NCBI GenBank assembly: GCA_903813345.2 | Contig: CAIIXF020000007.1 | Span: 11,103,730-11,167,729 of the forward strand | Reading direction: 5' to 3' | Origin: Owenia fusiformis | Taxonomy: Eukaryota > Annelida > Polychaeta > Sabellida > Oweniidae | DNA length: 64,000 nucleotides | Shown: positions 13,271-58,150 of the stretch, piece after piece | Numbering within the stretch: position 1 is the stretch's first letter | How the letters are laid out: the number at the start of each line of letters is the position of its first letter | Program-made: the position numbers and the translations under genes | The notes under the pieces: generated by a model | What the model was told of the DNA's origin: nothing | The model's database searches: none | The model's input: the letters and a program-made list of their open reading frames with translations, nothing else

Positions 13271-16194
13271 GCTCACATGGTGACAGAAAAAAAAGGAATG
13301 TAATTTTTTGCTGATTTTTTGTAACAAAATTATTTCAAGCCACTTGCCACTATTTTGGACTGACTGAGAGACAGATGTAGAAATCGATGTTAAGTAAAAT
13401 GGCTGAAAAAAAAACGGATATAATTTTGTTGCCAATTATTTGTGACAAAATTATTTCATACAACTACTCTTTACAGTGACATGGCTCTTTGCAATGCGAG
13501 ACACCTGAAATTATTTGTAAAGCTAGGAAATGGGCCAAAATTGAATTTCGCGAGGCAAAAATGGCGACCATTTTGAAATCAGGCAAGCTTTTGAACCAGG
13601 AGTCATAAGGGAGTTTTTTGTATTGATGTTGAACAAAAATAACTTGAAACTGGAATACTATCGACAGAGGGTTTAAGCAAATGGTCCAAAAGAGGATTTC
13701 GCGAGACAGATGGACAAATCAATGTTAACTAAAATGGCTGAAAATAAAAAAATGGATATAATATTTTGTCGATTTTTTGTAACAAAATTATTTCATACAA
13801 CTACTCTTTACAGTGACATGGCTTTTTACAATGCAGGACAGCTGAAATTATTTGTAAAGCTAGAATGGGCAAAAAGTGAACTTCGCGAAACAAGAGTGGC
13901 GGCCATTTTGAAAATAGGCAAGCTTTTGAACCAAGAGTCATAGGAGAGTTTTTTGTATTGATGTTGAACAAAATCAACTTAAAACGGGAATCCTATCGAC
14001 AGAGGGTTTAAGGTAAATGGTCCAAAAGTGGATTTTGCAATCAATGTTAACTAAAATGGCTGAAAATAAAAAAATGGATATAATTTTTCACTGATTTTTC
14101 ATAACAAAATTATTTCATACATCTACTCTTTACAGTGACATGGATTTTTACAATGTAGGACACTTGAAATTATTTGTAAAGCTAGGAAATGGGTCAAAAG
14201 TGAATTTTGCGAGACAAGAATGGCGGCCATTTTGAAAATAGGCGAGCTTTTGAACCAAGAGTCATAGGGGAGTTTTCTGTATTGATGTTGAACAGAAATA
14301 ACTTAAAACAGGAATCCTATCGACAGAGGTTTTAAAACGTGCCACTGTTATTGACGGAAAATGGATTTCGCGAGTCAGATAGACAAATCAATGTTAACTA
14401 CAAGAACACAAACGTGTACAATATGTCCCCACCTATGGGTAATCCTGTCAAATGATTATCCTAAAAATGAGTAGACAAGACTTTACCGACACAATTTGAG
14501 GACGGAGAATCCAAAATGGCCATCTTAAAATTTACCAAGAATGACAAAAAATTAGTCAGTTCTAGATTTTCATACTAAGAACCACCCCTGAAAATTTGAA
14601 ATTGATCCCTCACACAGTTAACCAGAAAACATGTAAACTGAAAATTTAAAATTGATGTACCAAACAGTTCACCTGGAAATGTGTAGACAAGACTTTACAG
14701 ACAAGATTTTAGGACAGAAAATCCAAAATGGCTGCCTTGACATTTACCCAGAATGCCCAAAAACTAATCAGTTCTAGATTTTCATAATAAGAATCATCCC
14801 TGAAAATTTGAAATTGATCTACCAAACGGTTCACCTAAAAACGCGTAGACAAGACTTTACGGGCAAGATTTTAAGACGGAAAATCCAAAATGGCTGCCTT
14901 GACATTTATCCAGAATGCCGTAAAAATTATCAGATCTAGATTTTCATACTGAGAATCATCCCTGAAAATTTGAAATTGATCTACCAAACGGTTCACCTGA
15001 AAATGCGTAGACAAGACTTTACAGACACGATTTTAGGACGGAAAATCCAAAATGGCTGCCTTGACATTTACCCAGAATGCCCAAAAACTAATCAGATCTA
15101 GATTCTCATACTAAGAATCATCCCTGAAAATTTGAAATTGATCTACCAAACGGTTCACCTGAAAACGCGTAGACAAGACTTTACAGACAAGATTTTAGGA
15201 CGGAAAAATCCAAAATGGCCGACAATAAAAAAGTGATTATGAGTTTTTGCTGAAATCTTTTTACAAAATTATCACATATACCTACTGTTAACAATAACAT
15301 AAGCTTTTACAACAAAGTACACCTGAAATTATTTATAAAGCTACTAAAAAGTTAAAGCATGAAAACTGAAAAACACCATTCAATATGATACAAAGTATTA
15401 TCGTGCGCTAACTTTTCTTAAAACATTCAAAATGGCTGACATGACTGAGCTAACAGGTCCAAAACCTAATCAGATCTAGAATGAAGTGAGCTGAACAAGA
15501 TGTTAAAGTTTTAAAAGCAACTGTGAAGCCGTTTTTCTTAAAGTTTGCAGACAAGGATTTTAGCATTTGACTTCAAAATGGCCGACAGGAAGTAGGTATC
15601 GAGTTAATTTTTTTTCATCCACATCTGCATGCACTCATAAATTATCCCTGAAAATTTGAAGGTGATATCTGCAGCGGTTTTGGAGAAAACTCCCGGACGT
15701 ACGGACGGACAGACAGACGGACAGACAGACGGACAGACAGACGGACGCGCCTAGGCCGACAATATGGCCCCACACTATGTGGTGGGGACATAAAAACAGC
15801 CCCCCACACTATGTGGTGGGGACATAAAAACGGCTGAAAATAAAAAGATGGATATAATTTTTCTCCGATTTTTTGTAACAAAATTATTTCATATATCTAC
15901 CCTTTACATTGACATGGATTTTTACAATGTAGGACACCTGAAATTATTTGTAAAGCTAGGAAATGGGTCAAAAGTGAGTTTCACGAGACAAAAGTGGCGG
16001 CCATTTTGAAAATAGGTGAGCTTTTGAACCAGGAGTCATAGGGGAGTTTTCTGTATTGATGTTGAACAGAAATAACTTAAAACAGGAATCCTATCGACAG
16101 AGGTTTTAAAACGTGCCACTATTGTTGACGGACAGACGGATGGACAGACAGACAGACGGACAAGTGAGTGATTGCAAAAGCTCACCATGTGAGC
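13271..16194. mobile_element. TIR element of ~330-bp tandem units (outer element)
   Basis: The ends carry GCTCACATGGTGA (13271-13283) and its complement (16182-16194). The body is about four units of 320-335 bp. Each has GGCTGAAAATAAAAA, TTTACAGTGACATGG, GCGGCCATTTTGAAAATAGG and ATCCTATCGACAGAGG, beginning near 13384, 13718, 14040 and 14387. The fourth is interrupted at 14400 by a second element and resumes at 15827. The tail has a GACGGACAGACGGA minisatellite, then a hairpin and an AAT run. No coding region. Repeats of this style are widespread in molluscan genomes (recollection, not a search). Confidence 0.7.
14401..15824. mobile_element. Nested ~1.4-kb non-autonomous element, copy A
   Basis: It splits a unit of the outer repeat: GTTAACTA before it and AAAACGGCTG after it rejoin to match intact units, with TA on each side. 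It opens near TATGTCCCCACCTATGGG and ends GGTGGGGACA, sharing the inverted core TGTCCCCACC. The interior has five units about 162 bp apart containing CCAAAATGGCTGCCTTGACA, then a GACGGACAGACA array (15697-15745). The right tip is repeated once in tandem. A second copy lies at 39966-41469. Confidence 0.75.
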
Positions 16195-18073: not shown

Positions 18074-21000
18074 TTACATATGAGCTGGAGCGGAATTTTC
18101 CCCTGTTGTCTCAGGCATAATGTACGCAATATCATCCCAGGGATGACGGTAAAGTCCTTGCTTTAGACGCTTCTGGTCAAGGAAATGACCTGTAAATAAC
18201 CATTTTATTTCAATTATTTTTCATGTCAAATTCATATTTTAAATCTAAGAGAAAGACTTTTCATAACTATCTAGAGAATTATTTCAATATTCTCATCTAC
18301 ATGTATGAAAAATCAACTCACAAAATCTTCTTGTTCAAAGTTTTAATACTCAGTATGACAATTTCCCCATAATTTCTCTAAAAACATTTGTTAAGGAGAT
18401 ATGGTGATTATATATTAAACTGTTGGTTGTTTTCATGTTAGACTTACCAATAAATCCCATACTCCTTCCCAGCACAAAGAGACCATTGAGAGCACCATTC
18501 TCCAGGCATTCATTAGCTTCCTCTCTGTAAGTGAAACATACATTGTTAAATGTAATATGATTCCCGATCCCATTCTCATAGAGATAGACATTTATTACCC
18601 AAAGGCAAATTGATATTATAAATTAACTCAATACTGTTCCATAGCTTCTGTCTGCAATCTTATTGATGATCTGGTAATGCATTGACTTGTTTTCCTAAAG
18701 ATACCATTTATTTTTCTCATGTTTGAATACATATGTTTGACACATTATCAAAATGTTACCTTGTAAAGCATTCACTGTTACGTAGAAGATCTACCATGGC
18801 GACACCTATAAAGCCATCTACATTCAGAATGAGGTTAGGTTTCTGAAAAATACAAAATAGTACTATATATACTGTATTTTACAAAACAAAATAAAATATT
18901 ATAGTTATACAACCTTTGCAGAATGTATATAAACTGATACTAGTAAACATTTTGTAGAAAATATTCATACAGTCACAGTTTAGGTCATGCACCTACAAAG
19001 TGTACACTATACTAGTCATTAAAGTATATTGATAGTAAATAGCCATACCTTTGATGTAGTTATTTTCTCCACCTCCAGTGCATAGTCTAATAGTGGAGTA
19101 GAGGGGAAGTTTTGCTTGACAAAGTCCTTCAATATCACCACTCTCTTGTCTGGGTTGTTAATCTGGAATAAATAGTATAAAAATATATAAAGAAAGTGTG
19201 GAAGATTTCATGCCAAGGCTGAATGAATGAATAATATACATAGTAGCCCGGACAGAATTGTCCAATGGTCACTTTTTCCTTAATAAATTTTTTAATTGTC
19301 AGTATTATCAAAATCTGATTACATATTATATATTTTTTAGATCTGTTTGTTTATTGATCTGTTAGCCCTAAATAAATCTCTGTAAAATTGAGGCCCAAGG
19401 TCATACATATGTCTGTCAGTATTAGTTCTTTGTGTTCCTTATCCTTGCCTTTGTGTTTTCTGAATGAGCAAATTTAGGATATACAGTATAAGGTATTGAA
19501 CAAAACTTACAGATTTCACCCTATGTCCAATCCCCATGATGAGCTGACCTTTCTTCCTCATACTGTTGACAAACTCCATAGGAATCATACCAAGATCATA
19601 GGCCTCTGAGAACTGTTGGGCTGCAGCATCCAAGGCCCCACCAAACCTGTCACCCTGTAATCAAATATAGTAAGATGTACATAGGAGTCATACCAAGATC
19701 ATAGGCCTCTGAGAACTGTTGGGCTGCAGCATCTAAGGCCCCACCAAACCTGTCACCCTGTAATCAAATATAGTAAGATGTACATAGGAGTCATACCAAG
19801 ATCATAGGCCTCTGAGAACTGTTGGGCTGCAGCATCCAAGGCCCCACCAAACCTGTCACCCTGTAATCAAATATAGTAAGATGTACATAGGAGTCATACC
19901 AAGATCATAGGCCTCTGAGAACTGTTGGGCTGCAGCATCTAAGGCCCCACCAAACCTGTCACCCTGTAATCAAATATAGTAAGATGTACATAGGAATCAT
20001 ACCAAGATCATAGGCCTCCGAGAACTGTTGGGCTGCAGCATCTAAGGCCCCACCAAACCTGTCACCCTGTAATCAAATATAGTAAGATGTACATAGGAGT
20101 CATACCAAGATCATAGGCCTCTGAGAACTGTTGGGCTGCAGCATCTAAGGCCCCACCAAACCTGTCACCCTGTAATCAAATATAGTAAGATGTACATAGG
20201 AGTCATACCAAGATCATAGGCCTCCGAGAACTGTTGGGCTGCAGCATCTAAGGCCCCACCAAACCTGTCACCCTGTAATCAAATATAGTAAGATGTACAT
20301 AGGAGTCATACCAAGATCATAGGCCTCTGAGAACTGTTGGGCCGCAGCGTCTAAGGCCCCACCAAACCTGTCGCCCTGTAATCAAGTAAACACCTAGTAA
20401 TATAGTAAAAACTAGATTAGATTCCAAGGATCTTACAGCAAGCTCAATATACATGTGTATATAGAGGATAAGATTAAGCAGTTGCTAAAATGCTATTCGA
20501 ATGAAACTACCATTGTACTGTTTTAAGAGTCAGGAAATCTATTTCCATACTCTGCACAGTGTCACACACAAGCAAACCTCAACAACTTCTGACAGATCTT
20601 CAGATCTTCAGATCAGCTCTTCTTGAATTCTCTTATGAACTCTCTTGTCATTAATAGACTTGGAATATTCCTTGGCATACTTACAATGGTGAGAAGACCA
20701 GATGTGAGACTAGAAATGAGATCTTTCCCTGCCCTTGCACACACTATGGTGTTGTGAGCCCCTGAGACTGCTGGCCCATGGTCTGCTGTGATCATCAGAA
20801 CCATCTCCAGAAATTTGGAAGCATATGGTGGTATCCTAGAATATAAAACATATTGTGACAGTCGCTAAATAATATCTCCACACATATCTATTGAGTCTGA
20901 TTTTAATCATTTAAAAATTACAGTTGAGTTTCAATTCATTTCACAAATACAGCATGTATATGTTTTGGGATATTGCACAATAAAATGAATATTTACCTTT

Positions 21001-30000: not shown

Positions 30001-33000
30001 CATTGTATATATACAGGCACTTGAATATGTATGAGGTCCTTCAATAAAATTAATGATGAATGATTCAATAAATCTACAACACTATCACAAGTAACATCTT
30101 GAATTACACATACATATTTCAGTGTGTTATTGGAAAATATTAAATGTACATATCTGGTATATTCATACTAGTTTGAGTTGTCCATTAATACATTCACTTA
30201 CTGTTTTTTATCATCTGGTACATTTTGTAGTAGTTTTGTATTGATGTCTTCTGTACTGGGAGATGTGTCTATTGGAATGTCTAGTTTAACAGCCTGAAGT
30301 GGGAAATAATACACAAGTCTAACATCTATGGTTTCATTTAAGAAGTTGCAAAAGATACATTTTTAGATGAACATCTGATCATGAATCATGTAGTGTTGTC
30401 GCGATGTGCAATAACCGTACATCGATGTTCTGTTTCAGACATCAATGCACCACCAGAATCACTTTTAGCGATGAATATTGCGATGCATCGATCAATCGGG
30501 ACAACGCTAGAATCAAGACCCTAAATTGATAATACTCATGATAACTTAGAAATGTATAAAATGATTGGCATTTGACATTTCTTGATCTCGGGTGTTTAAG
30601 TGTTTAATGTTGTTTTTGTGATGACCTGATTTAATAATTGATTTTTTGTAGTAAATACTTACATGTTTGGTATGAACCATTTAGTATTCAATAAAATACC
30701 TCATTAATATACACTCAATAAATACTATACACTACATGTGTATAAACACTTAATATGGTCTATTCTATATTGTTACATCATCAATTTAGCCTCCATAGAA
30801 CCCATATGTACAACTGGTATGGTATTTATCACCCAAAGTTTATTTGCAATCCTTATTAGTTGGATTAAGTGATTTGTCATATCTTTGCAATTTTCGTAAT
30901 GACTTGGGGTACAGCAAATATACTCTATCTCACAACTGATAATAATATGAGTTCTTTAGCCTACTATACTAATATAAAATGATCTACCATGATATTTTGA
31001 TATTCCTTTTCGCAAATTAAAATAAGATATTTTAGCATATTTTGGTCATGAATATACAAATTTTGCCACAAGAGTTCTTATAATTCAGTGTTGTTCAAAT
31101 TTGAATTTCGAATTCAAATTGAAACCCGTTGAGGGACAAAGACAACATTCAAAGCTACTTTTCAGCTTCATATTTCAATATATTGGGAGTGTGATTATAT
31201 TCTTACCTTGGAATCTACATCTCCGATGTCTACCCCACCCTCATGGTGGAACAATATTGTGTCTCCATCTCTGCCAGATAGTATACAAATATAGAACTCT
31301 TCATTTTGTTCATGTGGTACAAATGGTTCAATTATAAATGTCTTTAATTTGCCAATGGCTGTTCCAATCTGAAAAAAGAATGACAGATAGAGGATATCCA
31401 TAGAGTGGTGAAAATATGGGGTTTATCTTATACAGCTTAGATATTTTGTTCATATGGCACTACCATCTACAACTATATGGAGAACTTTCGTTTGCTTAAG
31501 ACCATGCTGATGTGAAAACTACAGATGTTAGCGATTATTCACTAAGAGGAATGGAATATGGGTTTTATCCTATCTATGAGCAATAAAATATATCCCAAAT
31601 GAACTAAGGATTTTAAATTTGTTATGATTTTTCAATTGTCAACTTGATGAAAATAGATTTTCAACACAAACAATCTTATTGACAAATCTCAACTGGGAAT
31701 AATGGAAAGATTATTGAAAGGGCTATGTTATATTGTATAAATAGAGAGAAGGGAAACAATTGTTATTATAATGTTATTATTAGCAAGGTAGTGCAACAGA
31801 AGTGTAAGTTAATAAAGGATAATTAAATTACAGTCTATATTAATAATTATATGAATAATTACATACTATGCTACAGTATATAGGCAATATTAGTATTCTC
31901 CAAACCATACTTTCAACTGTCTTCACTTATCTTTACAGTTGAAAATATAGCAGGTCTTAAATGTCGAACATTTTTGACATTTTTATTAGATTTTCTACAG
32001 AAATATAGAATTACAATTTTTTTTCATATCGGAAGTTGTTGTTGTTGTCATTTTTGCATGAATCAATATTCTATGTCCCCTGGAATCGTTTTCTCTACTA
32101 AGGTTTAGGAAATAGAGAATATCAAAGAACGCCAAGAACTATTGTTATTTGTGAGGGCATATAGGAAATCAATAAAAATGTGTCAATAGTTTACACAGTC
32201 TGGGATTAAAATAGTTTCACAGAGGTGACAATTGATCTTCATGGAAATAAATCTTCTAAATCGTTCACAATATCCAATATTCTGTTTTCCATTGATTATG
32301 ATTTCTCTGGTACTGTATAAATGTAACAGAATGTTATTAGTAAATGATTGTAGACACTTGTATATACACCCTGTGGAGAAAGTGGGGGTGCTGCGTAATT
32401 TGTAATCTACAGAGACAATAACAAAACATGGAAATCTTTATACATTTTCTAATATAAGATAACATTGATTACTGATAATCCCCATATATAACCAACACAA
32501 TTGATAATCCCCATATACGACCAAGTCAATGGATATTCCCCATATACGATCAACACAATTGATATTCCCCATATACGACCAACACAATTGATAATTCCCA
32601 TATGCGACCAACACAATTGATAATCCCCATATAGGACCAACGCAATTGATAATCCCCATATAGGACCAACACAATTGATAATTCCCATATACGTCCAACA
32701 CAATTGATAATCCCCATATACGACCAATACAACTGATAATCCCATTATACGACCAACATAATAGATAATCCCCATATACGACCAACACAATTGATATTCC
32801 CCAATATACGACCAACACAATTGATAATCCCCATATACGTTCAACACAATTGATAATCCCCATATTCAACCAACACAATTGATATTCCCAATATACGACC
32901 ATCACAATTGATAATCCCCATATATACGACCAAGACAATTGATAATCCCCATATACAACCAACACAATTGATAATCCCCATATATGACCAACACAATTGA

Positions 33001-36000
33001 TAATCCCCATATATGATCAACACAATTGATAATCCCCATATACGACCAAAACAATTAATAATCCCCATATACGACCAACACAACTGATATTCCCCATATA
33101 CAACCAACACAATTGATAATTTCCATATCTGACCAACACAGTTATATGTTGAACAGTCCAAGAAATACAAGATACAAGATACAATCTCAATACCATGAGA
33201 TCAATAATGCCAAGATATATTGGCTTCATTAGATCACATTGACCAAAAATCCCACACTTCATCGAACCTTTTCCATTGGTTAAATTTCCCTAACTGAATT
33301 TGTCCTCTCGATAATTGGATAATAGTCCAATTGCAAGTAATAGTTCTATTTATTTGGCAGCGTATTAACGGAATGTTTGAATGTCTCCAGAGATTTACAT
33401 TCTAAATCTATATCTTTGATCAAATTGGAGTGTATTGATTTTCTTAGGCAAATAGAGTTTTCCGGATTAGAATTCAGATGTTCATTTCACGGAAGATTGG
33501 CATTGTAATCCTGTGACAACAGTCTTATTCGGCGGGGGGGGGGGCTCTCTACTCTTGTTCTAAGATGTTGAAAATGTCATTAAGAATGCATGATGGATGT
33601 TAATCATTTAAAGATATAAATAATGTGAGGAAATAGTAAAAGATAATGTTACACAACGAAAGGCATCAGTGCACAATGTAGACATAATACAGGATGTCCT
33701 ATCCAAAAACAAATGCTGTTTGATTACATTAGAGGGCTAATGGCTGTTATTCTAATCTTATTTTAATTCATTATGATATATTTAATTCACACAAACTATA
33801 GACTTGGATGTAAAGATTTTCTATGATTATCGGATTGTTGAAGAAAAAATGAACTAATCACCTTTTAAAATTCAACTTTAACTTGTCATACCGCTTATAC
33901 ACTAGGCGAAGAATATTTTTTGTTGATATTTTTAGAAAAGAAGTTCTATATTACCCCTTTAAGAATGGATGAAATGCAAGTTATCATGTATCAAATGCTT
34001 AATCGTAAAGAACATACCAAGTATGGGGGAAATGATATGACAATATATCGGAAATCTGTCTCGTTTAATGAATGAATGAGCTCTTGTGAATACTAAAGAT
34101 CTCAATTAATATTTTGAGACTTTCATCTCTCTAAATTAAGCTTATCAATTTAATTAAGCAGTGCAGATTTATTCTTCAGAAAATATAAAATTCTTTCTCA
34201 GTATATTCTGCTCTTACTGGTAAGTGGTAATCTATATTATTTCATATTATAAATCAATAAACATTATACTCGTAAACTAACAAAAGGAAGCCTAGGAGGG
34301 ACAGCCATACCTCTTGTATATTTGTTCTTTTTTATTTTCCTCATTCCACACTAATCAAGGGGAACCAGGTGTTGATTTTTCCTGAGTTAAACATTTCTAA
34401 AATCCCTTTAGAAATTTTTACCATTTTAAAGGTTTCATTTGTTGGTGTCTGTGCATTTTTGAAGTGTCTGACCAAATTGCATTTTATATTGGTAATATAT
34501 TAGTAAGACGGGGCACCAAAGTACATAACCCTACAAATTATGATTGCTGTTGACCCTTTGTTGTATTTACTTACTTTAAAGTCTTGATTGATTCTAGTAG
34601 AAAGCCATTCTTTAACACCAGCAAAGTCTGTGTTCACTTTAATTAATCCAAGCTTGCCTCGCCTCTTAATCAACTGGTCAGGCTTCACTACAAGTTTCTG
34701 GAAATATAAAACATTGCAAATTACATTAATTAATTTGATTTTTTCAATGAGAGCATTGACTCAAGAGAAAATCTGAAAAAATCGAAAGGAAAATTTCTAT
34801 ATACTTACACTATTTCAATGTCAACAGTGATCTCCCAAGGATTTTTTCTCAAGTGGGTGCAAAATTCTCATTTTCACAATTCACACTGAAATTGCTCAAA
34901 ATTTGACCATATTTCATGATTTTTCTCATTTTCAAGTGGGTGCAAATGGATTTTTAGGTGGGTGCAAGCCTGTTTTTAAAATCTTAAGTTGGTGCTGCGC
35001 TCACTTGCTTTAATGCTGGGAGATCACTGGTAAATAATAAAAACACGATGGCAAATTCACATCAGTAATAGGATTTTGCATCATATAGGTCTGAGACTAA
35101 TTAATTAAGATGAGGGAGGGAGGATCAACATCTAAAGGGGTATGGGAGAAATCTTTGAAAATATTGAATGTGTAATAACTATCCTCTGAACACATGGATC
35201 CAGACATCATTTCCTGTATTCCTGTAAGTCAATATTGTCTAAAACAGAACAGAATGACTGTTGTCTGGAACCTGTATTCAGAAAACAGAAATGGTACACT
35301 TCAGAGTGTTATTTCAAAGCTACATGTACATGTATTTAAATATTACATTTGTATTTAAAGATCACAGCTGATTCACTGACATATGATGTGATTACTTCAA
35401 TCATTTTGATAACAAGTTATTATATAAATCATGAGTATGTGACATGATATTTTACAATCAATTAAAAATAAGTGTGCCACTATTATGTTAACTCTTTAAG
35501 TTGGAGATATGTGGTGGGCATTATGCCTATACAGGTTAATTGTCCCCGGGTAATTGGCTGTTTCAGCTTAACTTTTTGGGGAAAAGAGATGACCATTTTT
35601 TCTTTAATAAATATCTAGCTGAAAAGTGGTGAAATCCTCATAGGTCTAGAAAAAGTCTTTGGTACAAGGGGGAGTAACATGGGTAGGAGTATTTAGCAAA
35701 TATGGGCCGTATAAAAGGGTGAAGCGACTCAGTGCTTAAACTGACATATAGCTGATACCAAGCTTTGATCAAAAATAGAATATTGATACTTTGAATTGAT
35801 TTCCACAGTAACCTCTTGAGAAGATTGTGTACATGTAATTAAAGAGAACCTTTTATAATTAGGGTTAATGGAGACACTAAGAAATTAAAAATTTACCTGA
35901 GTTTTTAAAGAACAACCAACCCATATGAATGATAAATGATGACCTTTAAGGTGTATGGTGACTTTTGATAACACATAATTTAGCATTAATCAAATAGATC

Positions 36001-39965: not shown

Positions 39966-41469
39966 TAAAAAATGTGTACAAAATGTCCTCACCAATGGGT
40001 GATCCTGTCAAATGGTTATCCTGAAAATGAGTAGACAAGACTTTACCAACACAATTTGAGGACGGAAAATCCAGAAAACATGTAAACAAGACTTTACAGA
40101 CAAGATTTTAGGATGGAAAATCCAAAATGGCTGCCTTGAAATTTACCCAAAATGTCAAAAAACTAATCTGTTTCTAGATTTTCATACTAAGAATCATCCC
40201 TGAAAATATGAAATTGATCTACCGAACAGTTCACCTGAAAACGCGTAGACTTTACAGACAAGATTTTAGGACAGAAAATCCAAAATGGCTGCCTTGACAT
40301 TTACGCAGAATGCAAAAAAACTAATCAGATGTAGATTTTCATACTAAGAATCATCCCCGAAAATTTGAAATTGATCTACAGAACGGTTCACCTGGAAATG
40401 CGTAGACAAGACTTTACAGACAAGATTTTAGGACAGAAAATCCAAAATGGCTACCTTGACATTTACCCAGAATGCCAAAAAACTAATCAGTTTTAGATTT
40501 TCATACTAAGGATCATGCCTGAAAATTTGAAATTGATCTACTACATATCAAATATTTTCCACATTAGAAATGATTATGTATAATGATTATCTAAAGTGTC
40601 CCATAAGCCTTTGAAGGCTGGGTGCACTCTCGTTTGTATTGATTATATATGTATGTGAAATTGTGCACGAGACACTGAAATAAACAAATACTTACTTACT
40701 TACTTACTAAACGGTTCACCTGAAAACGTGTAGACAAGACTTTACAGACAAGATTTTAGGACGGAAAATCCAAAATGGCTGCCTTGGCATTTACCCAGAA
40801 TGCCAAAAAACTGATCAGATCTAAATTTTTATTCTAAGAATCATCCCTGAAAATTTGAAATTGGTCCACCAAATGGTTCACCTGAAAACGCGAAGACAAG
40901 ACTTCACAGACAAGATTTTAGGACGGAAAGATCAAAAATGGCCGACAATAAAAAACTGATTATAAGTTTTTGCTTATTTCTTTTTACAAAATTATCACAT
41001 ATAACTACTGTTAACAATAACATAGGCTTTTACAAGAAAGTGTATCTGAAATTATTTATAAAGCTACTAAATAGTTCAAGTATGAAAACTCAAAAACACC
41101 ATTCAATATGATACAACGTATTATCGCGCGCTAACTTTTCTTAAGACACTCAAAATGGCTGCCATGACTGAGCTAACAGGTCCAAAACCTAATTAGATCT
41201 AAAATGAAGTGAGCTGAACAAGATGTTAAAGTTTTAAAAGCAACTGTGAAGCAGTTTTTCTTAAAGTTTGCAGACAAGGATTTTAGCATTTGACTTCAAA
41301 ATGGCCGTCAGGAAGTAGGTTTTGAGTTTTTTTCATCCACATCTGTATGCACTCATAAGTTATCCCTGAAAATTTGAAGGTGATATCTGTAGCGGTTTTG
41401 GAGAAAACTCCCGGACATACGGACAGACGGACGGCCAACAATATGGCCCCACACTATGTGGTGGGGACA
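39966..41469. mobile_element. ~1.5-kb non-autonomous element, copy B
   Basis: Same family and layout as 14401-15824: opens near AATGTCCTCACCAATGGG, has several units with CCAAAATGGCTGCCTTGACA, and closes with GCCCCACACTATGTGGTGGG then GACATA. It lies upstream of the ACLY start codon, within the presumed 5'UTR intron. It is itself interrupted at about 40541-40708 by another insertion. Confidence 0.75.
40541..40708. mobile_element. Retroposon-like insertion with TTAC tail
   Basis: It interrupts copy B between TGAAATTGATCTA and AAACGGTTCACC, which are continuous in other units. The insert, about 167 bp, ends AATAAACAAATA followed by (CTTA)n. A polyadenylation-like signal and simple-repeat tail are typical of a truncated LINE or a SINE 3' end. 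The family is not identified. Confidence 0.6.
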
Positions 41470-42390
41470 TAACATGTACATTTATCTAATACTTTTTGAA
41501 ATATTACCATAAAAGGGAAGCACAGTATTGCTCATTTTGAAGGTCTCATGTTTATTACACAGAGTTGCATACCCTACTTAGTTGAAAGCCCATGCTCAGA
41601 CTTTGAACTTGTTCAATTTCATTTCTAAACCAGTATGACTGTTTGTTTGAAAACCTTATAATTTGTATATCGTAAAGCCAAAGAATCCATATTTGGTATC
41701 AAAGATGAACATCTCTCTTTTCTCCAAATGAACTAAATATAAGGACTACTAATGCATCATTTTAAACTAAAGAGTTATTCTCTTTTCGAAATTATCATTG
41801 TTTGTATCATATATTACTACCCTTTTCTGGTAACTTTCTACTATTTCAGAAATTGACATTTCAATCTATAAAACAACTGATTTGTGATAATAATAGTTTG
41901 TATATAATCACAGGATGTGTCCTGGGGAGACATGTCTTATTTATCCCACTTTGAGGTGTTTGAGGTAATAAGTAGGTTAACTTTGAAATACCGTAGTTGT
42001 ATTTTCATCAGCAGACAGGGCATAGCTTTACATCCCAGCTGAGCAGTGAGATATATTATTTTGCATTAGCAATAGTAAAAAATTCAGGCAATTGCAATCT
42101 ATTTGATGATTTAAACAAGAGAAGGAGCATATTTTTTCCCTGTTTCTGGGATCAAGATTCAAAAATATACATGTGGACAAATATATGCAAGGAAACAAAA
42201 CTGACATGTATAATATACCTGCCTGAGGGCCATAGGCCTCAGGATAATCACAATATCCGGATTACAGCACATATAATGTGTCAATTGCGTTGATATTTTC
42301 CAACCTCTAAATAAAATATTTTTGTGATCATATCCCAAAAAGATGATGTTAGAATGTTTTATCCATGAAATCAAATTCTTTTACTGTGCA

Positions 42391-44757: not shown

Positions 44758-47700
44758 ATGACTGACGGAGTAAGTTTAGTGTATATCATGTATATCTCTT
44801 GCAGTGAATAATGCACAACATATATATCTATATAATTACATAGTAGATTTTTTTCTCTACATTTTGATACCAAATATGTACAAGTTTGATAAAGTCGCTT
44901 CTTACTATTTCAGGACAAAGCAAAGGAAAGTGTCGATGAGTACATCAAACTGAAAGTTCTTGGACAGGTAATAATTTCTCATCATGTATTGTATAAAAGA
45001 AGGCGAATAACAAAGAAAAGAGATCGTTCTTTATCTGATTTGGATTGCTGGAGTATGTCTTGTCAATTTATATGTAATTTGCTTTGCAGTAATTACTTTT
45101 ACATTGGTTTGAATTATTGTCAAAATTGAAACAAAAACAAAGGAATTCACAGCACTTCTTGTGATTTGTCTTTGACCTATGACTGCTGACCTATACTGGC
45201 GATTACTAGAGTGCTGCTAACTCGATAAAAGGCTGGCGCTGGCTTGAATTGTCTATGGTTCTAGCCTGGATAAAGATACCAGTTCTTCAACTCGACAATG
45301 GGAAGAACTGCTCTAGGGCGAAGGGGTGTAACGTCGACACCGTTTTGGGGTAACTTCGACATGTGGGGTAACTTCGACACCCTGTTGTTTATTTGCTCTA
45401 ATTTCTGATCTAGGGGGAAGCCATGTTTTTTTTCTCGCATGGATTGAGATCTCGCGAGATTTTAATTTTTTCAGAAATCAAACACGGCGGAAAACGGAAA
45501 TTCTACTTCTAATACGTATGTGTCGAAGTTACCCCGTCTATTATGTCGACATTACCCCACACGTCGACATTACACCCCTTCGCCCTACCTAAGTGACTAA
45601 TATGTCATGATATGACATCTAAAGAGTCGATAAAAGATATATATATACACCATTTTGCTGACATCATCAGGACCAACTGCCTTACAATTCCCATTACTAC
45701 ACTGTAGTTCTAAGTAGAAAAATACGAACTCAATTCATTGTTAAAATGTGTTACAGAAACAGGTGTATTTCTTTGCTGGGCCTTATTATCATTGTTGTTT
45801 TATGTTACTTAGGTCCAAAGCCTTCTCTATTTCCGGCTTTGAGTGATTGTTACAGCCTTAGTAATTCAATATTTCTAAATCATGGTGACACACGCACAGT
45901 TGTAATGGCATAATATTATATGAAACATACCTTTATTCATACATTTGCAGAATATCAGCTGCTCATATCCCCGTCATATATATTTTATTAATTAAGCTAA
46001 GTGGAATTTCATTTCAAAAATGGCCTCCATTTTTCTGCTGAGTGAGCTGTATAAATGGCGGTATAATCCTTGAGTTTGAGGTTCTTTCCGAAAAGAAATT
46101 TTGAAATATCTTAATCCAGTCAAGCAATGCTTCAACCTCAATATAATTAATATTCTAATAAATATTTATAAAACCTATTTAATTGGAGATCTAGGTGCAT
46201 GTGACAATTTTTCTAGATTACATACGATATCAATGAAGTTGCATTTAGCTGTAAGCTAGAGACTCGAGTAAGTTTTATGGGTCTCAACAGTACACAGAGA
46301 ATTTAAGAAACCCTTGGGGTTCATTTCTGGCTTATTTTTGCGACTTAAATTATACATTGTAACCATATTTTGCAGGACCAAAGCGAGGTACATTTTAAAG
46401 TAAAAATGACAACACAGATGGGTAAACTAAAAAGAACATACAGTGAACGACAGGTTTGTTTGTTATAAGGGAAACCTAATGCAAAATCAGTTTAAATCTT
46501 TAGCAAACTACTTGTGTAATGCATATTAAGTCCATTTCAATGTTTTATTACAGTCCAAGATCAATATCGTCAATGACAACAGAATCTGAATTTGGGATAA
46601 TTTACAAAGACAACAGCATATGGTAAATTATATAAAATTCAGATTCCGTTGTCATTGACGATATAGAAGACGCTATTATTGTGGCGATTCACGACCCAAT
46701 TTGATTGAAGAGTGTATGACTGATATATATGAATGTATGGATAATTAGCTCTTATAAATCAAACTGTTTCATTATTCTAACAAATTGGTTAATAAGAGAT
46801 TTAGGGGTGTAAAGTGGTTTAAATATTTAATCAAATACCAATTATTCTACATTGTTTCTCTTACTGACTAGTTAAAAGTAAGATGTCTTTTTAAAAGATT
46901 AAATTGGTCTATTATAAATATTTCAACTGTGTCAATATATGCTCTTATTTTTTCTGAATCTTTAAGGATACAAAATCGACCAAAAGAATTGGCAGAATTA
47001 TTGAAAATTGAAAACCCATTATTGAAACATAGAAACATTTACAAAATTTGTCAAAGCACTGTTTGCTAGTGAAAAGCTTGGCAGATGAATCCATATCATT
47101 TCAAGTAGAATTTATTTCTCAAAAGCAATATCAAAGTATTTTACTTATTTATTAATATCCGCTTTTTATTATTATTCCAGGGTGTCCCATCAAACAGTTT
47201 ACGATTTTTGTTTGATGGAAGGAGAATAAATGATGATGAAACACCAAAACAGGTAAACAAACATCATTATTATTCAAATTCTATTGATTCCATTCTTTGT
47301 CATAGATTAGCATATACTTGTCTTCTTAATAACAGACCTACCATGGCCCTTAAATCTACCATATTTTTCAAGGGAATTTGACAAGTCTGGCCTTGATTAT
47401 TGGAATCACACTTTCTTTTACTCTCAGTTTCATGGCCAGGAAAATGTATTTAACCGTATGAACGTTGGGAACTGATTAGTTTTGTACATTATGAGGAAAT
47501 GTTAAAAGTGACTTTAAAAGACTATCTACAAGATCAAATCTGATTTATTGCATCTCAATTGATATTTTATTACTCTGACTTTTAAGAATTAGTGGGCGTA
47601 AAGACTTCTTCCTTGGTGGGCAAAATGTTAACTTTTAAGACTTTTGATTAATGCACTGGTTTTCTAGACTGAGTATATTATTATATAGTATTAGGGTTAT

Positions 47701-48577
47701 ACATCATATTTGGCACAATTGAACCTTGTTCAATGAATGTTATTTCATTCTAATAAGTTTCATTTGGGTTACTCCAAATTGTCACAAGTTTATGGCCATT
47801 TTATAAAACATGCTCCAAATGTCAAAACAGACCAAAATCACCCAATATGAACCTCCAGAAGATAATGTTTATATTTACAACCCTAAAAGCATCAGAGGGT
47901 TGAAACAAGAGATAAGAAGGAAAACCCAATTCGTTTGACAAGACTGGCATTTTGAGCAAGTTTTGTAAAATGCTCATAAAATCTGGACCATTTTGAGTAG
48001 ATCAATGAAACTTGGTGGATTGAAAGAATATTGAACTAAGTTCAAATGCCAAATGTGACTCAAAACCCATACTTGATGACGGAGTTATAAAGATTTGTTT
48101 GGGTTACATTTTTGACTCCCCCTTTAGTTCTACAATAGGTTTAATGAAAGATAGCAAGGAGGATTGGCAGCCAGAATGCAACATGGATATACTCTAACAA
48201 AGCTAGCATCAGTCCTTGAGTCGGTATTTCTCATTTCAAAATTTCAATCGATCGTTCATTCTCCCTGCAGCTGTAGAAATATACAGGCATGATCATCAAA
48301 ATCACATCACTTGGAGATTAAAAAATATCGAGTTGGAATTCTGGCTTCCAATCCTCCTTGAAAAGATAGCCAGAAGTTGAAATTTAGCAAATTACAACCA
48401 AGCACATATTGGCAGGGTTCAAAAATTGTTAAAACAAGACATCATCAAACTGAGGGTTTGGTTTGTATAATATTACATTACATTGACCATACACTAAATA
48501 ATACCAATCTTTTTCAGCTTGAAATGGAAAATGATGATGTCATAGAGGTATATCAGGAACAAACGGGTGGCTTGTAA
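44758..48577 (+). CDS. SUMO1: SUMO1-like small ubiquitin-related modifier, copy 1
   Basis: Five exons: 44758-44769, 44914-44967, 46376-46453, 47181-47252 and 48518-48577. They total 276 nt (91 aa) and are all in phase 0. The protein begins MTDG, then [20 protein letters not shown] on the beta-grasp fold, then [12 protein letters not shown] and [13 protein letters not shown]. The match is to SUMO1 ([20 protein letters not shown]) rather than SUMO2/3 (QFKIKRHT, DVFQQQTGG). The Gly-Gly needed for conjugation is followed by a single Leu, so a SUMO protease need remove only one residue. No N-terminal psi-K-x-E site is obvious. The stop is followed by a 3'UTR intron (acceptor GGTTTCAG at 48751-48758). 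It is the older-looking of two tandem copies in structure, but which copy is ancestral is not decidable here. Confidence 0.97.
45316..45585. mobile_element. 270-bp MITE with GGGCGAAGGGGTGTAA ends
   Basis: The ends GGGCGAAGGGGTGTAA and (inverted) TTACACCCCTTCGCCC are perfect, flanked by TA on both sides (45314-45315, 45586-45587). The subterminal regions hold repeated GGGGTAACTTCGACA words and their complements. It lies in SUMO copy 1 intron 2 and is absent from copy 2, so it inserted after the duplication or was lost there. Confidence 0.8.
46564..46664. repeat. 101-bp hairpin in SUMO copy 1 intron 3
   Basis: The 42-nt arms (46564-46605, 46623-46664) pair with four mismatches around a 17-nt loop. 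The arm core is TCAATGACAACAGAATCTGA. It is long for an animal pre-miRNA and could equally be a tiny palindromic MITE. Confidence 0.7.
47688..48075. mobile_element. Old foldback element
   Basis: The left part (47688-47830) and the reverse complement of the right part (47945-48075) share a series of words in order: ATTTGGCA, GTTCAAT, AAGTTTCATT, CATTTTA-AAAC-TGCTC. Mismatches and indels are common, so the insertion is old. It lies in SUMO copy 1 intron 4. Confidence 0.5.
48156..48361. mobile_element. MULE-like MITE with 9-bp target duplication
   Basis: The ends AAGGAGGATTGGCAGCCAGA and (inverted) TCTGGCTTCCAATCCTCCTT differ at one site. The flanks carry AAAGATAGC at 48147-48155 and again at 48362-48370. 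A 9-bp duplication is typical of Mutator-like elements. It lies in SUMO copy 1 intron 4, with no counterpart in copy 2. Confidence 0.7.
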
Positions 48578-48758
48578 CATCAGATTAGAAAGGTAATTGT
48601 TCTTGGCAAGATTTTTACTCAACTAATGATGTACTAGATAGTTAAGTTTTTCATTTTCAACCAAAGTAATTAATATCACTGTTTGAAAAATCGTGTTTCT
48701 TGGTATTTGCTACTCCGTAAAGTTACCAATTTCTTATTTTATATATGTCTGGTTTCAG

Positions 48759-48912
48759 CTTGAACTAGATCATTGACATTTGAATAAAGTATATCCTGAA
48801 CAAAATTGGAGGATTTTAAGAACTGATTTTAGACTCTCCACAAGGCATGTGTTCTCAACTTGAAATACACATCACACATTGGATATTTCTTATTAAACTA
48901 GTAGGGAAATCT
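48759..48912 (+). other. SUMO1: 3'UTR exon of SUMO copy 1
   Basis: It starts after acceptor GGTTTCAG. It contains AATAAA at 48783 and ATTAAA at 48892. The part 48791-48902 matches 58029-58140 of copy 2 at 111 of 112 positions. This is the most conserved part of the duplicated locus. Confidence 0.75.
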
Positions 48913-48924
48913 AGAGAACTGCGG

Positions 48925-50290
48925 CATGGCCATCATGACTATCTACTGCTGCCATGGCCAACGACGATGGATTTAAAGTGTTAATAGCCATTGAAAAGTT
49001 TCTATAGATGAACCCCGGTTGTTATGAAGGATACTGCCTTGGCTGGGAGATTAGCATAGTGCAAATATCTCTAATCAATTGTTAATTGTAAAAAGTCAAG
49101 AAGTGAAGTACGAGTCATTTCAATATTTTCAAAGATTGTATAGAATTCATTATTGTTTCTCTGATATACAATTAACAATTGGTTATCAAATATATATGTG
49201 TACATTGTAAATATGTGTCTTAGGAAAGATGTACAGTTGTGGAAGTTGAGGAGATTGGTGCACAGTTCTACATTCGGAGGACTCGATTTGAACTAAGTTA
49301 AGAATGTGTATTGTGTTATTTTTATTCCTGGAGCCAAATATGTATACTGTACTTATTGATATGATTTACGACCTATCAGCTTTAATGCAAATATCTGGAA
49401 ATACTTTCTTTTTAAGTTGAAACCAACTAATTTTGTAAGGAGATGTGCCATTTATGAAAACACAACTGATAATCAATGATCGCCATAGAATAATGTGTCA
49501 TGTACGTTTCAATGTATCCATTGTCTTACTCAAATTTCATATGTTTTAGAGCTCTGAACTGGCACTTTAAAAGAATGAAAGAATGCATTATGACTTTGAT
49601 TGTTACCATAGCCATTGACAATGGATTAAATATTAATAGCCATTTAAAAGATCCAATAGATGAACCCAAGTTGATGTTGAGGATGCTGTCTTGGCTTGGA
49701 GAATAGCATAGTGCAAATATATCTGATCCTAATCAATTGTTCATTGTAAAAAGTCAAGAAATGAAGTTAAATGTATGTGTTTCCCTTTTCGGGATCATTT
49801 CAGTATTTTCAAAGGTTAAACGGAATTCATTATTGTTTCTCTGATATACAAATAACATTTGGTTATTAAAACAAATATGTGTACATTGTAAATATGTGTC
49901 TTAGAAAAGATGTACAGATTGTGAAAGTAAAGGAGATAGGAGCACAGTTCTACATTCGGAGGGGGGGGGCTCAATTTGAAATTAGAAAAAGTGTATTGCC
50001 ATATTTATTTCTGGAGCCAAATGTTTATACTGCACTTATATTGATGATTTACGACCCACCAGCTTTAGTCGAAATATCCAGATATCTTATTATTTTAAAG
50101 TTGAAAGCAACTACATTTGTAAACAGTGATGTGCCATTTATGAAAACACACCTGATAATCAGTGATCTCCATAGAATATTACTTTCATGTAAAATTCAGT
50201 GTTGTTTTTATGATCAATCTGTGGTCTTACTCAAATATCATTACATACGTGTTTAAGAACTCTGAAGTGGCACTTTAAAAGATATGTAAG
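48925..50290. repeat. Tandem ~0.67-kb duplication downstream of SUMO copy 1
   Basis: Two diverged units (about 48925-49590 and 49591-50290) share TGGCTTGGAGAATAGCATAG-like sequence, AAAAAGTCAAGAA, ATGTGTACATTGTAAATATG, ACAGTTCTACATTCGGAGG and TATGAAAACACA in the same order. Part of the same sequence lies downstream of SUMO copy 2 (58160-58320). An open frame of 125 codons in the second unit is closed in the first, so I regard the repeat as noncoding. Confidence 0.75.
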
Positions 50291-50949
50291 AAATAAAAAT
50301 TATTTTGATGTAGTTTTATAATTGTATATTATATCAGTCTTTTTTGTCAATTATGTTAATTATCAACCTACTTGATGTTCAACATCAAAATTGGTTGTTT
50401 CATGGGAAATGTGAAAGATTGCATCTAAACTGGAAATAATCTCTAGGAATACTCATCTGCAACATTCCACTATCCTCACTTGATGTATTTAGCTTTTTAG
50501 TTTGATATAAAATGTATGAATAGTGATCAATACTAAATATACAAAAATTTGAGGCAATTGACCAGAGAATACTTCCTTTAGTCCATGTATATTATATCCG
50601 TTTGTAATAAAGATCATTAAAAATAAATGACAACGTTTCTTTGAATTTAATAGAAATAATGGTTTTGAAAACATGAATTAGCATAATCTAGTGAACTTGG
50701 GAAAAATATTCTGCATTTAACACCGTCCTGAAACAAATCTGATATTAGCTTCCAGATCACTGCAAAAGATGTTGATAGGATCTCTACTGAAATCTACCTC
50801 TTCTGGCAAATACAAGATGTGGTAAACCATATTTAGATAGGATCAGACTGCTATCTTTACCATCCAAACTACAATGAAAAATCGTAAAGATAAGAGATTA
50901 TTTCTGGTTGCCTTTCATGTATTTCATAAAATACATTTCTAATGAGTAG

Positions 50950-53617: not shown

Positions 53618-54322
53618 TTGAAAGGAGGAGGGAAAGTATCGCAACAAATTTCGGACAGCCATATGTTGGATTTTGGCTATTTTCTATGGATTTAAACAGG
53701 ACCATGGCCAATGCAAATACCTCCAGGAAAAGCACTCATAGAGATGATAAAATAATTTCTACTTTGAGACATGGAAGATGCAAACAACCCACCCACATGT
53801 TTTTTCTGAAATGTTTTCCTGATTTTCAATCCCTTCAACCCCTGCTTTTCTTGTATCAATATGTTGTGTTTTGACACACAGTTAATCCCTTTAAAGGAAT
53901 AAGTGATTCCTTTTAGATAAAGTGGAAAACAATATTTCCCATGTTATTTTCCCATAGGGAAAAATCATGCGATCCATTGCTTTCAGCTAATTTCACCTTA
54001 AAAAACCTCGAAGGAATCACTTATTCTTTTAAAGGGGTTAAGTGTGTGTCAAAACACAACTCATTAATGCAAAAAAGTTAAAAAAGCAGGGGTGGAAGGG
54101 ATTGAAAATCAGGAGAACAATTCAGAAAAACATGTAGGTGGTTTGTTTGCATCTTCCGTTTCAAAGTGGAAATTATTTTATCATCTCAAGGAGGGCTTTT
54201 CCTGGAGGAAATGCATTGGTCTTACATATGGACCTGTTTATAAATCCACAGAAAATAGCCAAAATCCAACATATGACTGTCCAAAATCTGTTGCGATACT
54301 CTCCCTCCTTTCTTGTCAAAAC
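53618..54322. mobile_element. Foldback element, copy 1 (~705 bp)
   Basis: The left arm runs from AAGGAGGAGGGAAAGTATCG to GACACACAGTTAATCCC. The right arm is its reverse complement and ends at CGATACTCTCCCTCCTT. The centre (about 53916-54009) is not paired. Each arm also contains a small palindrome around AGGAATAAGTGATTCCTT. No transposase. The overlapping open frames on both strands are by-products of the palindrome. Confidence 0.8.
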
Positions 54323-54454
54323 GACCTGCTCCGTCACATTGACTTTTGTCGATGACACCCAGGCGGCCCATGTAACTATTTCTTGGGATCGTATCTTCAC
54401 ATATGGATACCCTGACGTCAACTTGCGTGTACTGACAAATAGGACTTTTGTAAA

Positions 54455-55173
54455 AGGAGGAGGGAAGTTAGTGCAACAGATTTTGGACAGTCATATGTTT
54501 GATTTTGGCCATTTCCTGGGGATTTTAACAGGTGCATATGTTAGGCGAATGCATTACATCCAGGGAAATCACTTCTAGAGATGATAAAATAATTTCGACC
54601 TTGAGACAGGGTAGATGCAAACAACCCACCCACATGTTTTTTCTGAAACGTTTTCCTGATTTTCAACCCCTTCCATCCCTGCTTTTTTAATTTTTCTTGC
54701 ATCAATATGTTGCATTTTGACACACAGTTAATCCCTTAAAAGGAATAAATGATTCCTTTTAGATAAAGTGGAAAACAATATTTCCCATGTTATTTTCCCA
54801 TAGGAAAAATCATTGCTTTCAGCTAAGTTTGGTCACCCATAATGGGTATCTTTAAAACCCCTGAAGGAATCACTTATTCCTTTAAAGTGGTTAACTATGT
54901 GTCAAAATGCAACATAATGATGCAAGAAAAATTGAAAAAGCAGGGATGGAAGGGGTCGAAAATTAGGAAAACATTTCAGAAAAAACATGTGGGTGGGTTG
55001 TTTGCATCTACCCTGTCTCAAAGTTGAAATTATTTTATCATCTCTAGAAGTAATTTTCCTGGAGGTAATGCATTGGCCTAACATATGCAATTGTTTAAAT
55101 CCTAAGAAAATGGCCAAAATCCAAAATATGACTGTCCAAAATCGGTTGCGCTAATTTCCCTCCTCCTTGGTCC
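54455..55173. mobile_element. Foldback element, copy 2 (~720 bp)
   Basis: Same family and structure as the element at 53618-54322: ends AAAGGAGGAGGGAAGTTAG and ATTTCCCTCCTCCTT, with the same internal words (ACAACCCACCCACATGTTTT, CCTTTTAGATAAAGTGGAA). The two copies are only about 130 bp apart, in the same orientation. Target duplications are not evident. Confidence 0.8.
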
Positions 55174-55452: not shown

Positions 55453-57676
55453 ATGACCGACGAAGTAAGTTTAAGGAATATCTCTTGCGCAATCATAACA
55501 AATATCATGAATATCTACATCACCACATGGTAGGAATTTTCCTCTAAGTTTTGGTACCAAATATGTACAAGTTTGATCATGTTGCTTCTTGATATTTCAG
55601 GACAAACCAAAGGATGCTCAGTACCTCAACTTGAGAGTTGTTGAACAGGTAATAATTTTATAAGGTCGTGTATTGTATAAAAGAAGGCGAATACCATAGA
55701 AAACAGATAATTCACTATCTGATCTGTAATATTGGATTATGTCTTGGCAGTCACGTTATTTGTCAGTTGTAGTTTACTCTGTCAAAATTGAAAAAAAACA
55801 AAGTAATTTAAAACAGTTTGCCGACATTATCAGAACCAAATGTATTTCCTTATTACCACACACTTCAGTTGTAGGTAGAAAAATAAGAACACATTCATCG
55901 CCCAATATATTATAACGGAAACGCAGATGTTTTTTGTTTGGCTTAATGTATAATAATATATGCCTTATTGGTATAAAAGTAGATTTGGGAAACCCTGGGT
56001 TTTCATTCCTGGCTTAATTTTGCTCCTTATATTGTATATTGTAACCATATTTTGTAGGACCAAGGCGAGGTACATTTTAAAGTAAAAAAGACAACACAGA
56101 TGGGTAAACTAAAACAAGCATATGCTGACCGAAAGGTTGGTGAAAACTAAGGCAAAATCAGTATGATTTTTGAGAAAACTTCTTGTGTAATACATATAGG
56201 GAGAATAGAGATTTCGCTTATAAGTGAAAGCACAACTTACATGTTACTAATATTTGAAATTATTCGAACTTATGATCGGACAAACGTATGACACGTACTT
56301 CAAGGGAATAAAGCAACATCATACGTTTGTCCGATTATAAGCTCGAATAATAGTTGTTTCAAATATTAATTGTATGACATATACAAGACCAATGTTAATG
56401 CTACTAGAGGTAATTGGACCAATAGGCCTTACTTTTTATACATGTTTTTCTATTTTGAAGAATTCGATTTGTGATGTATATTTCTTAGTTTTCCAAAGAA
56501 GTCTACAAATTTTCCGTTGCTGTTTAATCTTTACATCGTAATTTCAATCACCACCATCGCTTTTCAAACGAGTTACCCTGAAATATCAAAACGTCATACT
56601 ATTTTCATACTTGTAGAACTTAATGTGGCTGTCATTCACCATTTATTAAGTAGTAAAAAATAATTTGTTACATCGGTGACAAAATGTTTCTAGTTTCCTG
56701 CCGAATCTCCAGTCTCGCATCATGCAAATGTAATTTTAGGCGATCTGTCTGCATGTGGTGTTCACACTTGGTAGTCGTTTCGCGACAACAGCTTTAACAG
56801 ATCTACCTTTGTTTTTTCCAGGGCGTTCCAAAAAACACTTTACGATTTTTATTTGATGGAAGTAGAATAAATGACGAAGATTCACCAAAACAGGTAAAAA
56901 ACGTCATTATTGTTTAAATTATACTGATTCCATTCCTTATTAATTATATATAGGCCTATTCCATACTTGTCAACCTATAAAAAAATGGTAACTTTGAAAA
57001 TAAAAATATTGATGATTTACAGTATGTTTTTCAAAAATCGTTGTTCTTCGTTGCGATTTTTTTTAATGAACTGCCTACCTTCTCTGTAACATTACAATAA
57101 CAGCTATGGTAAACTTAATATGTGGCTTGAAAGTGGGGTATATCATTTTGAATTAAGACCGTACATTTTCCAGAAATTGAGTAAAAATAAAACTGTAACT
57201 CTTATAACCTTTGTCAATGACATGTCAGTATTCCTATTTTTGAAGAACTTATGGGATTGTATTTAAAGATTTGCTAGCTAAAGGGTTCTAACAACTGACC
57301 TATGATTGCAAAGTTTTATTTTTGCTCGTCGAACTCAAGTAAAATATTTTTTCCTTTATAATTTAGGCGTTGAGAAAGATTTTGTCCCCTTATACTTATA
57401 CTCCTACCTCTTCTAAAATAGCTTTTATAAAAGCATTTGGAAATAGAGATCAATTCTGTTTTAAGTTATTATATTAAGTTGGGATAGAGTCTTGAAGCGC
57501 CATTGGTTAAACGATTAGCTGAAGTTGAAAAAATTGAGTGTTTCATCAAACTGAAAGTCCTGTAATATTACGGTGTAACAAACACTCCGAATAAATTTTG
57601 GTGTTGTATTCTTCAGCTTGAAATGGAAGATAAAGATATTATAGAAGTATACCAGGAACAGACGGGTGGCTTATAA
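55453..57676 (+). CDS. SUMO1: SUMO1-like modifier, copy 2
   Basis: Five exons in phase 0: 55453-55464, 55601-55648, 56058-56135, 56822-56893 and 57617-57676. They total 270 nt (89 aa). The sequence is MTDE, then [53 protein letters not shown] and [12 protein letters not shown]. The beta-grasp core and the Gly-Gly-Leu end are intact. Against copy 1, exon 2 is two codons shorter and has several changes (YLNLRVVEQ for YIKLKVLGQ), while exon 5 is nearly the same. All splice sites are canonical and there is no stop, so it looks functional. The upstream region, exon pattern, 3'UTR intron and 3'UTR match copy 1, which shows a DNA-level duplication rather than a retrocopy. Confidence 0.96.
56249..56367. 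repeat. Hairpin in SUMO copy 2 intron 3
   Basis: Arms AATATTTGAAA...CGGACAAACGTATG and complement CATACGTTTGTCCG...TTTCAAATATT, with small indels, enclose a loop of about 28 nt. It has no sequence in common with the hairpin in intron 3 of copy 1. Confidence 0.65.
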
Positions 57677-57733
57677 CATCAGAAAGAATAGAAAGGTACT
57701 GGTTGTTGAATTGTAATTTTAGAATTAATGACT

Positions 57734-57995: not shown

Positions 57996-58150
57996 CTCAA
58001 ACTAGATCATTGACATTGAACGAATTATATATCCTGAACAAAATTGGAGGATTTTAAGAACTGATTTTAGACTCTCCACAAGGCATGTGTTCTCAACTTG
58101 AAATACACATCACACATTGGATATTTCTTAATAAACTAGTGGGGAAATGT
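57996..58150 (+). other. SUMO1: 3'UTR exon of SUMO copy 2
   Basis: It starts after acceptor GGTTTCAG (57988-57995). It contains AATAAA at 58130-58135, the one place where the 112-nt conserved block differs from copy 1 (ATTAAA there). Confidence 0.75.

Follow-up and report, generated by a model that had tools for sequence, protein, structure and literature searches.

Ectopic gene conversion has been described between linked paralogues such as BMP8A/B, DDX19A/B and TUBG1/2 in the excerpts of PMC2720389 used here, and a raised GC content of conversion tracts has been reported from Drosophila (PMC3924832, excerpts). Human SUMO1 gives rise to the transcript SUMO1V2, which is spliced after the stop codon in exon 5 and leaves the protein unchanged (PMC9911741, excerpts). 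Further, exon skipping can yield non-conjugatable SUMO, as in the SUMO alpha isoforms: exon 2 or 3 is missing from SUMO1 alpha and SUMO2 alpha, and later SUMO1 database variants either lack exon 4 or carry an extra exon between exons 4 and 5 (PMC9911741 and PMC13174819, excerpts).

Here, we analysed a window of 64,000 nucleotides (the whole stretch of Owenia fusiformis DNA under study) that holds two SUMO genes, A and B, in tandem on the same strand. The pair resembles the linked paralogues in the excerpts of PMC2720389 and PMC3924832 in showing local near-identity within an otherwise diverged linked pair, and identical tracts were sought by permutation both here and, with Geneconv, in PMC2720389. 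In contrast to the pairs in the excerpts of that study, the SUMO tract is only about 103 bp long, is single, is confined to a noncoding 3′ exon and has flanks that are 13-19% diverged; moreover, those cases were confirmed with orthologues, whereas the SUMO tract is known from one genome. Among the matches listed from the literature on SUMO 3′UTRs, SUMO in molluscs, conversion and UTRs, and exon duplication, as far as their excerpts go, none described this case, which is no proof of its absence from print, and the letters of the block gave no literature match. We propose that about 103 bp in the last, noncoding exon of the two genes were probably homogenised recently, through ectopic gene conversion or comparable templated copying of a short stretch, a reading to which we give somewhat more than even credence.

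Two tandem SUMO genes are predicted to end in a separate noncoding exon

Both SUMO genes were predicted from the sequence to consist of five coding exons with AG/GT borders, followed by a noncoding exon 6:

44758..44769, plus strand: SUMO gene A, exon 1 coding part (ATG, GT donor)
44914..44967, plus strand: SUMO gene A, exon 2 (AG/GT borders, open frame)
46376..46453, plus strand: SUMO gene A, exon 3 (gene model; Pfam Rad60-SLD on the joined protein)
47181..47252, plus strand: SUMO gene A, exon 4 (gene model)
48518..48592, plus strand: SUMO gene A, exon 5, last coding exon (QTGGL end, stop at 48575, donor 15 nt past the stop)
48759..48909, plus strand: SUMO gene A, exon 6, 3′UTR (ATTAAA at 48892; 3′ end set by hand just beyond the signal)
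55453..55464, plus strand: SUMO gene B, exon 1 coding part (gene model)
55601..55648, plus strand: SUMO gene B, exon 2 (gene model)
56058..56135, plus strand: SUMO gene B, exon 3 (gene model)
56822..56893, plus strand: SUMO gene B, exon 4 (gene model)
57617..57695, plus strand: SUMO gene B, exon 5, last coding exon (QTGGL end, stop at 57674, donor 19 nt past the stop)
57996..58147, plus strand: SUMO gene B, exon 6, 3′UTR (AATAAA at 58130; 3′ end set by hand)

Both proteins are SUMO-like: they matched Pfam Rad60-SLD (E 1.2e-21 for protein A and 2.7e-20 for protein B) and carry the diglycine end QTGGL, and the best PDB matches of protein A, the one of the two that was searched, were SUMO2 and SUMO1. 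On these models the near-identical block falls in a UTR exon of its own, which an intron separates from the coding exon in both genes. With a donor only 15 or 19 nt past the stop, nonsense-mediated decay is not expected under the usual 50-55 nt rule. Exon 6 would simply provide the 3′ end and the poly(A) signal for both SUMO mRNAs. SUMO1V2, as presented in the excerpts of PMC9911741, offers a precedent for post-stop splicing in a SUMO gene; SUMO1V2 and the present models share a splice past the exon 5 stop, but the downstream exon here appears to be a decayed exon 5 duplicate.

A 103-base identical tract lies in an otherwise diverged pair

We found that positions 48791-48902 of gene A and 58029-58140 of gene B are the same at 111 of 112 bases. 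The sole difference, T in A and A in B at 48893, sits in the poly(A) hexamer, just as an earlier note made from the letters alone had claimed; the hexamer reads ATTAAA in gene A and AATAAA in gene B. The two copies lie on the same strand, about 9.2 kb apart, in linked homologous partners:

48790..48892, plus strand: identical 103-base tract, copy A (change-point and longest-run analysis)
58029..58140, plus strand: copy B of the block (111/112 bases the same as in copy A)

The whole genes were compared in nine BLAST segments, which gave 1676 sites after redundancy was dropped; segment 49842-50060, representing the second copy of a duplication downstream of A, and sites reusing B positions were left out. 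Identical sites off the block amounted to 228/270 in coding and 1038/1294 in noncoding sequence, that is, to a divergence of 15.6% and of 19.8%, the latter leaning towards similarity because only alignable sequence was counted. The claim that this piece of 3′UTR is more conserved than the coding sequence holds. The same note had counted about 10 differences over 72 positions of a coding exon and had called the introns largely unalignable. The 10 mismatches were recovered, but in what is exon 5 of the present model and together with 65 matches and 4 gap columns. The statement on introns fits intron 5, which is alignable only at its ends (the last 23 bases, 21/23 the same, and about 37 bases past the exon 5 donor), but is too strong in view of the 1294 noncoding sites that do align. 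The note had also named molluscs as the relatives to search, whereas the source is probably an annelid: a published Owenia fusiformis syt1 primer (PMC8111721, excerpts) has an exact 20-base match in the assembly, in what by eye resembles the membrane segment of a synaptotagmin gene. An elav1 primer from the same paper and a mitochondrial cox1 fragment had no match. Between proteins A and B, 17 of the 73 residues compared differ, and the corresponding codons of exons 1, 3, 4 and 5, with exon 2 (indels) and the stop codon left aside, gave a dS of 0.33 and a dN of 0.126. Third positions of exons 3-5 differ at 15/69 sites and fourfold sites at 2/18, so that the neutral rate is only roughly known.

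The longest mismatch-free run between SUMO A and B covers 103 aligned bases (48790-48892), while the next longest among the 1676 aligned sites covers 25, and the best 103-site window clear of the tract has 94 matches. When the mismatches were permuted over all 1676 sites, none of 20,000 permutations gave a run of 103; within the better-kept island 48736-48913 (177 sites, 10 mismatches), 17 of 20,000 did so. Chance as the source of the 103-base identity is ruled out by the permutations and the run comparison, a test which marks the tract as special and on which copying and constraint would score alike. Flanking divergence, proposed earlier as a check for a conversion tract, revealed sharp edges: 7/53 sites differ just 5′ of the tract and 3/21 just 3′, followed by 27/140 further 3′.

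Exon 6 of gene A looks like a decayed copy of coding exon 5

Aligned without gaps from the splice acceptors, exon 6 and exon 5 of gene A match at 32 of 54 positions. When both strands of the window were scanned (127,892 positions), three places attained this score, namely the two exon 5 copies and A exon 6 itself, as did none of 100,000 letter shuffles. The gapped alignment of A5 with A6 starts from base 1 of both exons, extends over 69-70 bases and scores 37 (shuffles: mean 18.5, 0/2000 as good), with the exon 5 stop TAA placed on a TAA of A exon 6. Read in its former frame, A exon 6 gives LELDH*HLNKVYPEQNWR, as compared with the 18-letter exon 5 peptide. For the other exon 5/exon 6 pairs, shuffles scored as well in 1/2000 (B5/A6), 8/2000 (A5/B6) and 931/2000 cases (B5/B6). 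Exon 6 of gene B matches exon 5 at 17/54 positions without gaps, its homology being weak or lost in the left part, and the rest is common with A exon 6. The first 70 bases of A exon 6 thus look like a decayed exon 5 duplicate, old stop included.

In tandem exon duplication a second copy of an exon stands behind the first, in the same phase. Significant homology starting at the splice acceptor, by which such duplications are recognized, is present for A5/A6. In contrast to the usual situation, the second copy here seems to have lost its coding role and to serve as the 3′ terminal exon. The simplest history behind the A5/A6 homology would be a doubling of the last coding exon that predates the gene duplication, after which the first copy kept the coding end and the second the poly(A) end. 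Intron 5 gave no signal of being an old UTR remnant, since 625/2000 and 1524/2000 shuffles scored equally. Whichever explanation of the block holds, a decayed exon copy of this kind would illustrate how duplication can turn one coding exon into two, one still coding and the other supplying UTR and poly(A) signal. Moreover, exon 6 shares its start phase with exon 5, so that skipping of exon 5 would yield a SUMO without diglycine. Such a gene A isoform, ending in LELDH, is a predicted product and differs from the SUMO alpha forms in the excerpts of PMC9911741 and PMC13174819 in that the diglycine end is replaced by LELDH.

Gene conversion or selection on a 3′UTR RNA element

The earlier note had offered two explanations of the identity, a recent conversion or strong selection on an RNA element. 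With chance excluded, both stay in play, and the conversion half is the favoured one; positive evidence for an RNA element amounts to little beyond the identity and the right edge of the tract. In our judgement, which is not a computed figure, conversion is the likelier of the two and extreme selection on a 3′UTR RNA element the less likely.

Under conversion, one SUMO copy, either A or B, would recently have overwritten the other over the tract while the remainder kept its old divergence, and the identity would stem from copying rather than constraint. The tandem same-strand layout suits such an event. The left edge of the tract lies inside decayed coding sequence, where no functional border is apparent, which also favours conversion, as do the folding, Rfam and assembly searches, which gave no hint of an RNA gene. 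Against it stand the flanks, diverged by 13-19% where conversion normally wants high identity, the loosely known neutral rate, and the finding of one such tract only over the 1676 aligned sites of the SUMO pair. We also looked at base composition: GC is 0.33 in the tract and 0.337 in the window, and the 100-base flanks have 0.31 and 0.43 in A and 0.29 and 0.40 in B. The tract shows no clear trace of GC-biased conversion when compared with the window and these flanks.

Alternatively, purifying selection on a 3′UTR RNA element, acting in stability, localisation, translation or poly(A)-site control, may have kept the copies identical since duplication and so maintained a shared control of the two mRNAs. 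We regard this as possible but rather doubtful. The entire tract is unchanged while its flanks diverged. Its right edge falls at the poly(A) signal, as is more readily expected of an element acting in the RNA than of a tract ending at random. Furthermore, the lone difference of the block swaps ATTAAA for AATAAA, hexamers that are both functional in animals, and the acceptor stretch (21/23) and the first exon 6 bases have likewise diverged less than intron 5 has over most of its length. On the other hand, near-complete constraint would be needed over 103 bases, partly of dead coding sequence, while 17/73 residues of the proteins changed, and a UTR constraint stricter in both copies than that on SUMO itself would be odd. 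Gene A carries one further signal of relevance here:

48783..48788, plus strand: additional AATAAA of gene A, just 5′ of the block and lacking in B

If this AATAAA were used, gene A transcripts would lack most of the block, which is ill-suited to an indispensable element.

The block also showed no fold beyond chance and no Rfam family, which speaks against the RNA element. Relative to shuffles, the fold stability of copy A had z-scores of -0.75 on the plus strand, where 50/200 shuffles folded as well, and -0.52 on the minus strand; copy B gave -0.54 and -0.55 on the two strands, and the longer exon 6 stretch gave 0.17. This test speaks to structured RNA, and an unstructured element is compatible with its result. 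Rfam returned 0 matches at the gathering score over the whole window, with weak matches only (E 1.9 and 4.8). The suggestion that a small RNA is embedded in the block finds no support in these values as far as known families are concerned. A set of 3′UTR motifs and 24 miRNA seeds was searched for in the block, and apart from the poly(A) hexamer a single miR-375-type 7-mer was present; one seed site against 0.32 expected in random stretches is uninformative. On the minus strand, each of the three reading frames over the block contains a stop.

The exon history and the RNA element could be combined, in that a dead SUMO exon copy might have become a 3′UTR regulatory RNA element that is conserved to the last base in the two paralogues, places both mRNAs under a common control and is usable as an alternative last exon for a non-conjugatable SUMO as well. 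We consider this combination unlikely. If conversion is correct, the locus is a clean case of a short tract mimicking ultraconservation and a warning for paralogue-only scans; if selection is, it carries an unusually strict 3′UTR element on the SUMO system.

Reverse transcripts, dispersed repeats and RNA genes

A short cDNA, primed at the poly(A) tail of the mRNA from one SUMO gene, might instead have overwritten the 3′ end of the other gene. Such cDNA-mediated conversion would account for a tract that abuts the poly(A) signal and ends within one exon, and SUMO mRNA seems to have been reverse transcribed in the past, to judge from intronless SUMO-like copies at other loci. However, the 21 aligned bases that begin with the hexamer, where the tract should start, contain three differences, and exon 5, which directly precedes exon 6 in the mRNA, is unconverted. 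This route is improbable in our view.

Least probable among the explanations weighed is that the block is a dispersed repeat or a small RNA gene inserted into both genes, as its sharply bounded, identical unit might suggest. A DNA search of the 498,259,871-base assembly placed the block in at least two places, copies A and B, which were the only ones among the matches listed. A pattern search with its 20-base core, allowing at most 3 mismatches, gave 5 matches, of which the block accounts for two, whereas the reversed control pattern gave 24, and the first part of the block is homologous to exon 5. An insertion of this kind is largely refuted by the assembly and core-pattern searches. A 24-base near match in another locus (L017) looks like chance, given that the reversed control pattern was commoner (24 vs 5). 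Viral and prokaryote contigs contained no match to the 20-base core, which is no surprise.

Two intronless SUMO-like frames were detected elsewhere in the assembly, one (L003, G000:C10:32359969-32360169) 69% and the other (L004, G000:C2:13516693-13516887) 66% identical to gene A exons 3-5. Both look like retrocopies, and neither contains QTGG in the frames scanned. When about 1.5 kb on each side of them was compared with the exon 5-exon 6 stretches for a shared UTR, no match extending the gene into the block was found among those listed. The 3′ side of L004 enters a dispersed repeat, and at least 41 of at least 44 matches touch that part only.

Repeats in the window

Directly downstream of gene A, 48931-50292 is a direct duplication with units of about 650-700 bases that are 76% alike, each of them in part similar to the sequence 3′ of gene B. 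Between the SUMO genes, just upstream of B, 53621-55168 holds two adjacent self-complementary repeats of about 700 bases. Farther away, 1476-2365 forms a near-palindrome in which some 890 bases are 92.6% self-complementary. A tandem array with a period of 103 bases and copies 93-98.5% alike lies at 19577-20388, and another, with copies 86-89% alike, at 32471-33147. Finally, arrays of related repeats occur about 24 kb apart at 13368-16132 and 39970-41472, being, for example, 92.5% alike over 733 aligned bases.
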